A stretch of 64,000 nucleotides of DNA from an uncultured Ignavibacteria bacterium (lineage in GTDB: Bacteria; Bacteroidota; Ignavibacteria; Tepidaquicellales; OLB5): positions 124,001-188,000 of the forward strand of contig CALMYL010000021.1 in assembly GCA_937873695.1 (NCBI GenBank). The letters run 5' to 3'. Positions within the stretch are counted from its first letter, which is position 1, and every line of letters starts with the position of its first letter. Positions 36,299 to 39,066 of this stretch are shown here, piece after piece. The notes under the pieces are model-generated. The model worked only from the letters and a program-made list of their open reading frames with translations, did no database searches and had not been told where the DNA came from. Position numbers and translations under genes: made by a program.

Positions 36299-37735
36299 AT
36301 GAATAACGAAGTACGCGTACGTTTTGCACCATCACCAACGGGTTATCTGCATCTGGGCAGTCTGAGGACAGCCCTTTTTAATTATTTATTTGCAAGACAC
36401 CATAGTGGAAAGTTTATTTTGCGTATCGAAGATACTGACCAATCACGTAAGGTTGAAGGCGCAGTTGAGAACCTGATAAATATACTGAATGAAATGGGCC
36501 TGAACTACAATGAGGGTCCGGGTGTTGGCGGCGAGTTTGGTCCGTACTTTCAGTCAGAGCGGCTGGATATATACAAAAAGTATTGCGATGAGCTTCTGGC
36601 AAGCGGTCACGCTTATTACGCATTTGAAACTGCTGAAGAGCTGGATGAAATGCGCAAAGTGCAGCAGATGCAGGGCAAGCAGACAATGTATGACCGCAGG
36701 GCAAGAGTACTGACCGAAAATGAAGTAAAAGAAAAATTAGCTTCGGGGATTCCCTACGTAATTAGATTAAAAGTACCAATGGATACTGAAATAAGATTCA
36801 CTGATATTATCCGCGGTAATGTTAAGATAGATACGAACCTTGTGGATGACCAGGTATTGCTGAAGAGCGATGGCTTTCCCACATATCATTTGGCAAATGT
36901 GATTGATGACCATTTCATGAAGATCACTCATATAATAAGGGGTGAAGAATGGCTTACATCTGTACCCAAACATATCATACTTTATAATGCTTTTGGCTGG
37001 GAATTGCCGCAAATGGCGCACGTACCGCTGATACTCAACCCCGATAAATCCAAGCTTTCAAAGCGCCAGGGCGATGTTGCAACCGAAGATTATTTAAAAA
37101 AGGGCTACCTGAAGGAAGCTTTGCTGAACTTTATGACATTACTTGGTTGGAACCCGGGGGATGGTGAAGAGAAAGAAATATTCACCAAAGCTGAGCTCAT
37201 TGAAAAATTCACTATTGAACGGGTTAATTCCGCCGGGGCAGTATTCAATGTTGAAAAGCTTAACTGGATGAACGGGGAGTATATCAAGAATTATGATATT
37301 GATGCATTGACTGAATTGGTCATTCCATATTTGAATGCGGGTGGTATTGATACAAGCGATCTGGTAAAGACTAAAAGAGTTGTATCAGCTATCAAAAATT
37401 ATATCAGCAAGCTTGATGAGGCCGCGGAGCAGGCAAAAGTATATTATAACGAAGTAATCCTGAACGCGGAACAAAATGCGATAGTAAATAGTGAAACTTC
37501 AAAACAGGTTTTTGCATTATTGCTATCAAAAATAGAGCAATTACTTGAAATTTCTACCGATAATTTTAAACCAACTTTAAGTGAAGTACAGAAGGAATCA
37601 GGGGTAAAGGGGAAAAACCTGTTTATGCCTGTAAGGCTTGCCCTGACGGGCGAAGAACACGGGCCCGAGCTTGGACTGATTGCTTATGTTTTGGGCAAAG
37701 ATGAGGTATTGAAAAGATTAAAGGTATTTTTGTAA
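36299..37735 (+). CDS. gltX: Glutamate-tRNA ligase
   Basis: The 478-residue enzyme charges tRNA-Glu with glutamate. The HIGH signature is PSPTGYLHLGSLRT (residues 11-24) and the KMSKS loop is KLSKRQG. The middle has IRGEEWLTSVPKHIILY and the C-terminal anticodon-binding domain runs to the end, with GKNLFMPVRLALTGEEHGPEL. It is complete and normal. A tRNA-Glu gene lies elsewhere in this window at 49.6 kb. A small mobile element begins 9 bp after its stop codon. Confidence 0.96.
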   Translation: MNNEVRVRFAPSPTGYLHLGSLRTALFNYLFARHHSGKFILRIEDTDQSRKVEGAVENLINILNEMGLNYNEGPGVGGEFGPYFQSERLDIYKKYCDELLASGHAYYAFETAEELDEMRKVQQMQGKQTMYDRRARVLTENEVKEKLASGIPYVIRLKVPMDTEIRFTDIIRGNVKIDTNLVDDQVLLKSDGFPTYHLANVIDDHFMKITHIIRGEEWLTSVPKHIILYNAFGWELPQMAHVPLILNPDKSKLSKRQGDVATEDYLKKGYLKEALLNFMTLLGWNPGDGEEKEIFTKAELIEKFTIERVNSAGAVFNVEKLNWMNGEYIKNYDIDALTELVIPYLNAGGIDTSDLVKTKRVVSAIKNYISKLDEAAEQAKVYYNEVILNAEQNAIVNSETSKQVFALLLSKIEQLLEISTDNFKPTLSEVQKESGVKGKNLFMPVRLALTGEEHGPELGLIAYVLGKDEVLKRLKVFL

Positions 37736-37743
37736 CTTTGAGA

Positions 37744-37778
37744 GTTTTGTCTCTGGAATGCATTGACTGTGTCAATGC
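37744..37778 (-). repeat. Left end hairpin of the REPtron
   Basis: Read on the minus strand it starts GCATTGACACAGTCAATGC and continues ATTCCAGAGACAAAAC. The stem is 8 bp with a 3-nt loop. The right end is an inverted copy with two compensated base pairs changed. Confidence 0.7.
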
Positions 37779-37856
37779 GAATTATGTTTTCCCGTTTTTA
37801 TATTTGATTAATAAGAATAAGTTTCGAACTATACTCATTCGATTTAGAGGATCTTC

Positions 37857-38403
37857 TTGGAAACACTTAAAAAATACAAACATAATCCACCGCATTTATT
37901 CAGTCCACGAACAAAGTATTTTATTACGGGATCAATTTATGGCAAAATAGACTTGCTAAAATCACCGGAATGTAAACAAAAAACTTCTTGAATACATAAT
38001 TCGTTCTACTGATAATTTTGAATGGAGTTTGGAAGATTGGGTTATACTTAATAATCATTATCATTTGATGCTGGAATCACCAGAAAATCCGTCTACTTTG
38101 GGAAAAATGATGGGAAATATATATCGATATTCAGCAATCTGGATAAATAAAAATGTAGATTTTAAAAAAGAATTTGATAAAATTTGGCATAATTACTGGG
38201 ATAAATGTCTCACATTCGAAAGCTCATACTTTGCAAGGTTGAATTATATTTGTTTTAATCCCGTCAAACACAGCTTAGTTGAAGATCCGGTTAATTGGGA
38301 ATATGGAAGTTATTATCATAGGTACAATGAAGAAAAGGAATATTTACAAAAGATCAATAAGAAATATCCGCACAAGAATATAAAGATTGATGACAATTTT
38401 TGA
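37857..38403 (+). pseudogene. RAYT (REP-associated Y1 tyrosine transposase), frameshifted
   Basis: Two frames make one IS200/RAYT-type protein of about 181 residues. The first part (TTG at 37857, with AGAGGA upstream) contains YFITGSIYGK, and the second has the histidine motif NNHYHLML and YRYSAIWINK with candidate catalytic Tyr. One extra A in an A6 run (37978-37983) breaks the frame, giving a TGA at 37989; removing one A restores KLLEYIIRSTDNFEW in the family pattern. The core motifs are kept, so the damage is recent, or a base-calling error. RAYTs spread REP hairpins by single-strand transfer. Confidence 0.8.
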
Positions 38404-38439
38404 AGATAATCTTTAGAATTTTCGGTAAGTTCAAGATAT

Positions 38440-38473
38440 GCATCAACACAGTTGATGCAATCCAGAGCAAAAC
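38440..38473 (+). repeat. Right end hairpin of the REPtron
   Basis: It starts GCATCAACACAGTTGATGC and continues AATCCAGAGCAAAAC. It is an inverted copy of the left end. The stem differs at two positions per arm, each matched by the opposite arm, so the hairpin itself is under selection. Confidence 0.7.
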
Positions 38474-38538: not shown

Positions 38539-39066
38539 ATGAATACAATTAAACTTATTTTAATTATTGTCATTTCCGCAGTATTTTTTTCCTGCGGCAA
38601 AAAGGATGAAGCGCCAAAGGTTGAAAACCAGAGCTCTACACAAAACGTTCAGCCTAATACCCAGAATAATTCCTCAATTGATAACGGGAGAAGGTGGTGG
38701 ATCGGGCGATATTCTTTTGACGAATCAGCAAAGAATGTTTCAGGCGATGGCGCGCAGACATGGAGCTACATTTTAGATGTTAAACCGCTGGATGATGAGA
38801 ACATGATCGCTTCCCTTCAGATAGATGGTTTCCAGACAATGACAAGACTTGAAGCAAAAGTTAACGCTACTGCTATGGATATTGAGTTTATTTTTGATAA
38901 ATACGGCAAAGAAAATATGTTTGAAAATTATAAAAAGGGCGACAGGCTTTTTGCAATGATGAGAAATACTGATAATGTTGTAATGACAAACTGGGATAAG
39001 CTGAAACCCAATGTTATTGATAACCAGGAAAGCGGCAAAGTAATGTTCAGGAAAATTGCTTTGTAG
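38539..39066 (+). CDS. Hypothetical lipoprotein
   Basis: The 175-residue protein has a lipobox ending FSCG (SCGKKD), then an Asn/Gln/Ser-rich linker (about residues 25-48) and a compact domain with WWIGRYSFDESAKN and WSYILDVKPLDDENM. The pattern YSF/YEF...WxYxL recurs in small lipocalin-like lipoproteins of Bacteroidota, but I cannot assign a family with confidence. It ends 46 bp before a clear terminator, so it is a monocistronic unit between the REPtron and the cytochrome gene. Confidence 0.75.
   Translation: MNTIKLILIIVISAVFFSCGKKDEAPKVENQSSTQNVQPNTQNNSSIDNGRRWWIGRYSFDESAKNVSGDGAQTWSYILDVKPLDDENMIASLQIDGFQTMTRLEAKVNATAMDIEFIFDKYGKENMFENYKKGDRLFAMMRNTDNVVMTNWDKLKPNVIDNQESGKVMFRKIAL

Follow-up and report, generated by a model that had tools for sequence, protein, structure and literature searches.

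A frameshifted RAYT gene between inverted hairpins beside gltX, probable source or former source of a genus-wide REP population with TGGAN feet in Ignavibacteria

Introduction

The REPtrons of E. coli, Stenotrophomonas and Pseudomonas (Bertels groups 2 and 3) consist of a single-copy HUH-Y1 gene, the RAYT, located between inverted REPs, with many further REPs elsewhere in the genome, a REP family of its own for each RAYT and compensated changes in the stems. Known REPs carry GT[AG]G at the foot position (PMC6006769, PMC8266576), and in E. coli the W94-Q95 region of the enzyme contacts this guide (PMC6006769). TnpAREP subclass 2.8, reported mainly in Cyanobacteria, combines GT[AG]G feet with an HYH motif, W[YH] and a proline-rich N-terminus (PMC6006769). 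A literature search for RAYT together with Ignavibacteria found nothing.

Here, we analyzed a window of 64,000 nucleotides from an uncultured Ignavibacteria bacterium (contig CALMYL010000021.1, positions 124,001 to 188,000) which contains a RAYT gene beside gltX. The system works as a REPtron with a REPIN- or BIME-like population and differs from the described systems by a non-canonical guide common to several phyla and by doublet arms that consistently differ. It shares with canonical REPtrons all the features listed above except that the foot is TGGAN instead of GT[AG]G, that the WQ guide-contact motif is replaced by WH-NYW with one residue fewer and that the RAYT is frameshifted. Subclass 2.8 resembles it in the NHYH motif, WH, a proline-rich start (NPPH) and occurrence in unrelated phyla, whereas the TGGAN feet and the Y-motif variants YIWFNP, YVHQNP and YVHLNP set it apart. 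E. coli BIMEs (y-z1, y-z2) are a partial parallel, being likewise head-to-head doublets of two different REP types, but the doublets described here use many stem combinations instead of two fixed types and have perfect stems without a conserved bulge. REPINs of Pseudomonas fluorescens SBW25 are also inverted REP doublets dispersed as a unit; they fold into a single long symmetric hairpin whose compensation runs across the arms, whereas here compensation occurs within each arm and the arms are not complementary to each other. TIRtrons/TIRYT (PMC3733652) likewise place a Y1 gene between inverted repeats; the present locus differs from them in lacking the GGGGWSAS motif and in having ends that are hairpins with many genomic copies.

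Results

The two arms flanking the RAYT gene (GTTTTGTCTCTGGAATGCATTGACTGTGTCAATGC on the left and GCATCAACACAGTTGATGCAATCCAGAGCAAAAC on the right, Table 1) are inverted copies of a single element. Both have the loop ACA and the common tail A-N-TCCAGAG...CAAAAC, and their stems, GCATTGAC/GTCAATGC and GCATCAAC/GTTGATGC, differ in two base pairs, both of which are compensated. Allowing up to three mismatches, the window holds exactly two hairpin units at a chance expectation of 0.00. An earlier note on this DNA had described inverted hairpin copies with compensated stem differences around a RAYT-type gene beside gltX, which the sequence confirms, and had placed the element 9 bp from the gltX stop, where we measured a gap of 8 bp (stop at 37735). 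The RAYT-like character of the gene is borne out by models and motifs, but its frame is broken by a +1 shift that the note had missed.

Table 1. Features of the gltX locus in window coordinates.
Feature	Position	Strand	Remarks
gltX (glutamyl-tRNA synthetase)	36299..37735	+	upstream neighbour; the REPtron of three species lies in its 3' spacer
Left REP arm	37744..37778	-	minus-strand reading GCATTGAC-ACA-GTCAATGC, then ATTCCAGAGACAAAAC
Left arm foot TGGA	37754-37757 region	plus-strand reading	5' of hairpin
RAYT, probable TTG start	about 37857	+	
RAYT, N-terminal part	37858..37983	+	ETLKKYKHNPPHLF...KSPECKQK; unshifted frame closes at TGA 37990
A6 run with +1 frameshift breaking the RAYT frame	37978..37983	+	third-position-biased substitutions in both halves against the G002 and G010 orthologs
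RAYT, C-terminal part	37984..38403	+	NHYH (HUH-type), KIWHNYW, catalytic-Tyr motif LNYICFNPVKH
Right REP arm	38440..38473	+	GCATCAAC-ACA-GTTGATGC, then AATCCAGAGCAAAAC
Right arm foot TGGAT		minus-strand reading	5' of hairpin
Small lipoprotein-like gene	38539..39066	+	downstream neighbour; adjoins gltX in REPtron-free species

The shift lies in an A6 run and splits the protein into ETLKKYKHNPPH...KQK and LLEYII...HYH..., with the N-terminal 41 codons in a different frame from the remainder. Orthologs were found in Ignavibacteria bacterium UBA2360 (G002) and Ignavibacteria MAG_28 (G010). Y1_Tnp was detected above its cut-off, while NCBIfam REP_Tyr_transpos (NF047646, cut-off 80 bits) matched the orthologs with 91.8 and 99 bits and the window fragment with 73 bits, below the cut-off because the gene is broken. 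The HUH motif, the catalytic tyrosine, the single Y1 domain and the REP_Tyr_transpos match of the orthologs place the protein among RAYT/TnpAREP enzymes, with E. coli TnpAREP (PDB 4er8) as a solved relative (E 4e-6 with the G002 ortholog). Relative to that ortholog, substitutions by codon position number 8/10/18 in the N-terminal part and 20/15/56 in the C-terminal part, a bias indicating that the window RAYT was under protein-level selection until recently. We prefer a plain mutation, or what may be a sequencing error, over programmed frameshifting since the gene would need a +1 shift and the A6 run lacks an in-frame canonical -1 heptamer. The G010 ortholog is intact; the G002 ortholog seems to have lost its last residues by a frameshift, the continuation KKLYPCDNLLEDDNF lying in another frame. 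Given the broken window gene, the hairpin population of this genome is probably no longer fed by it.

The order gltX, REPtron, lipoprotein gene is common to three species, with the RAYT flanked in each by inverted REPs of the same family; 2 family hairpins surround the gene in the window, 8 in G002 and about 9 in G010. One close RAYT copy is present per genome, always at the gltX site. In nine further genomes of the genus that cover the site, the lipoprotein gene comes immediately after gltX (the G005 contig ends at the site and is outside this count). They include G011, whose gltX is 93% identical, and G009, assembled in 2 contigs and still carrying 17 hairpins. No close RAYT was found in G009, G008 or G003 (17-41 hairpins each), all with an empty gltX site, and the linkage of RAYT and hairpin is therefore not universal. 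The empty sites imply either repeated loss of the REPtron or its repeated gain at a single site, and the hairpin-bearing genomes among them that hairpins outlive the gene. Comparing empty and filled site pairs yielded no exact insertion boundary, the spacers being too diverged. A second gltX-like gene, 37-40% identical, occurs at G000 C17:244701-245537 and at one place in most genomes of the genus.

Read foot first from 5' to 3', the hairpin unit is TTGGAN-T-GC[stem-loop]GC. The pattern given in the earlier note matched 27 places of the 3.78-Mb genome with up to three mismatches, compared with 0 for the reversed-pattern control, and a looser pattern gave about 45 units; leaving the four inner stem pairs free, 200 units were listed across six genomes. 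The pattern was present in 10 of 13 genomes of the genus and in none of 26 genomes outside it. Stop-free stretches of at least 120 codons hold 6 of the 27 copies but 84% of random positions nearby, so that, as in other REPtrons, the dispersed REPs without a gene are mainly intergenic. Stem base pairs 1-3 and 7-8 hardly vary, while pairs 4-6 alternate between T-A and C-G, T-A and C-G, and G-C, A-T and C-G, respectively, nearly always with compensation. Among 31 sequences from the genus, 99.6% of stem cells are paired, double-sided changes occur at 4 of 8 stem pairs and double-sided cells number 29 compared with 9.4 +/- 2.3 in shuffles; structures slid along the sequence were 12-43% paired.

Most of what the earlier note proposed about the hairpins thus held up: the structure and not only the sequence has been kept, the whole-genome search it called for returned further copies mostly between genes, and related RAYT neighbourhoods, namely those at the gltX site of two other species, contain clusters of the same hairpin, so that neither of the two outcomes it had named as refuting was obtained. 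What it took for a common place of such elements beside gltX is one orthologous REPtron site in three species. The proposal that the hairpin ends are the RAYT's own REP substrate draws support, by linkage, from the genomic copies and from conservation at orthologous RAYTs. In some arms of L013, L021, L011 and L085 (near 1-60, gltX downstream stretch), an insert of 20-25 nt, rich in GCCCGGC/CTGCC, takes the place of the loop while the outer stem is preserved, as seen in both G000 and G002. In G010, a 40-bp tandem array of REPs with identical stems on one strand (C5, L075:4350-4561) ends in one inverted REP with a different stem.

Seven other Y1 genes of the window's genome are without the family hairpin, most being flanked by different hairpin or inverted-repeat families. 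Four of these Y1 genes (L028, L029, L030 and L031 on C12, C23, C20 and C23) have DHxH motifs, and L028-L030 also carry Y..NQ(K/E)HH, the motif of TnpA subclass 1.2, which is reported to be without REPs (PMC6006769). L028, L029 and L031 lie amid hairpin families of their own and L030 amid other inverted repeats; the L028 hairpins have alternating stems (TGAYGCC/CGACCCC) and about 17 copies in the genome. The eighth Y1 gene, L035, has imperfect inverted repeats, but a stem scan found no clear perfect hairpin there.

Across the six genomes, 45 head-to-head doublets with spacers of 0-28 bp were identified. In none of them were the two stems identical, while random pairing within genomes predicts 12.5 (P<1e-5, with 0 of 100,000 permutations reaching so low a count; shared descent makes the doublets non-independent, so this P value overstates their independence). 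With duplicates removed, the count was 0 of 41 compared with 11.2 expected, and a chance origin of the arm difference was rejected by the permutation. In this test L025 and L027, the ends of G000 contigs C16 and C30, were counted once; they are identical around the same doublet and probably one place assembled twice. Doublet loops were identical in 14 of 41 cases compared with 14.4 expected, which indicates that the stem alone is involved and led us to reject a loop difference as part of the rule. Same-strand neighbours had identical stems in 6 of 7 cases. Doublets with spacers of 15-28 bp also always differ, and outside the genus the arms differ in 15 of 16 non-overlapping doublets, the exception being L121; two apparently identical cases, L119 and L120, arise from reading one hairpin on both strands and were left out of the count.

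Single-stranded folding predictions gave two small hairpins on a junction for nearly all short-spacer doublets, with G002 C2 205973 as the one listed exception, and so without the long inter-arm hairpin of SBW25-type REPINs. The predicted folds are usually closed by pairing of the feet TGGAG/CTCCA. Hypothetical doublets with identical arms are predicted to form a single rod of 23-24 bp.

A scan of 84,980 species with a three-sequence alignment as query found 38 relatives with WHNYW; this motif was part of the query and thus selected for, the foot was not. On hairpins beside 36 related RAYTs, TGGA occurred 70 times in the 5' flank compared with 2.6 in shuffles, at 20 of 36 loci from Ignavibacteria, KSB1, Chloroflexi/Anaerolineales, Verrucomicrobia, Kiritimatiellales, Lentisphaerae and others. 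GTAG showed no comparable enrichment at the same RAYT-flanking hairpins, and those flanking the remaining seven Y1 genes in the genome of the window have almost no TGGA feet. We hypothesize that the change of foot and the change of the guide-contact region to WH-NYW are linked. An arginine equivalent to E. coli R104 was considered as the foot switch and rejected as L103 and L127 keep it yet have TGGA feet. The hairpins at L119 and L120 have a GGA-like foot on both sides, like the 'double foot' REPs of subclass 2.4.

Discussion

The locus is very likely a REPtron, with an HUH/Y1 RAYT/TnpAREP gene between inverted cognate REPs, and the source or former source of the genus-wide REP population, which would have spread as single hairpins and head-to-head doublets. 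If it acts like TnpAREP of E. coli, the RAYT would bind a folded single strand in which TGGAN, in place of GTAG, forms the foot 5' of the hairpin, make a cut next to the hairpin and join it elsewhere, thereby copying or moving REPs and doublets into intergenic DNA; cleavage, mobility and cognate pairing are what we infer here. Stem sequence would drift freely provided that pairing is kept. A self-mobile IS200/IS605-like insertion sequence, or a MITE or TIR transposon moving as a unit, would fit the inverted ends with GTTTTG/CAAAAC termini and the fact that many relatives, the near G011 among them, have an empty site. Such an element is very unlikely as the close RAYT stays at one copy and a fixed site per genome while the hairpin alone has many copies, the ends of IS200/IS605 are not inverted copies of one hairpin and the IS200 model scored 25-27 bits against a cut-off of 55; IS200/IS605 membership is largely refuted. 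The position of hairpins directly after gene ends and their intergenic bias would also suit a role in intrinsic termination or mRNA stability at gltX and other genes, with the transposase as an unrelated neighbour. This is very unlikely, given that a 9-nt foot with an invariant TCC is superfluous for a terminator, units are found in either orientation and also as inverted doublets, hairpin clusters surround the RAYT in three species, and related RAYTs of other phyla, whose neighbours are unrelated, are flanked by this foot too.

The arm difference may result from enzyme recognition of two hairpins, from avoidance of an unstable palindrome or from ancestry. In case of recognition, arms would be kept different so that the junction presents two enzyme-readable hairpins and not one inter-arm rod. 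Ancestry only, i.e. copying of one y/z-like doublet with a GA-type and a CAA-type arm and no selection against identical arms, would explain why 35 of 41 distinct doublets join a GA-type with a CA/CC-type arm and finds a parallel in E. coli BIMEs, which combine y with z1 or z2 (PMC8266576). We consider it rather doubtful, since all six GA x GA doublets differ too, pairings are diverse and species-specific (TTGA/TCAA, CTGA/TCAA, TTGA/TCCA, TTGA/CCGA), arms also differ in Chloroflexi and Lentisphaerae where the stems are unrelated, and most same-strand neighbours have identical stems. In bacteria, long palindromes are unstable, and spacers of 0-2 bp are common, so that identical arms would create a near-perfect long palindrome. 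Difference kept because a perfect 50-bp palindrome is prone to cruciform formation and SbcCD cleavage, and not for any need of the transposase, is nonetheless unlikely: doublets with 15-28-bp spacers always differ although instability should be weaker there, and the long symmetric hairpins of P. fluorescens REPINs persist (PMC3116915). As a broader and tentative proposal, which we hold to be possible but somewhat short of an even chance, a RAYT clade across phyla exchanged the GT[AG]G guide for TGGAN along with the motif change (WQ to WH, with a one-residue deletion), selection prevents the two stems of a doublet from becoming complementary so that two separate hairpins form on the strand, and the arm difference is a general rule of REP doublets that would also explain E. 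coli y and z.

The way in which REPs and their doublets spread has yet to be explained. In a clade whose guide differs and whose stems vary freely, both recognition elements have been swapped naturally, which makes the guide code of these domesticated transposases directly testable. The arm-difference rule further offers an easy way to find out whether the working substrate consists of a pair of small hairpins or of a single long one, a choice on which current models are silent.
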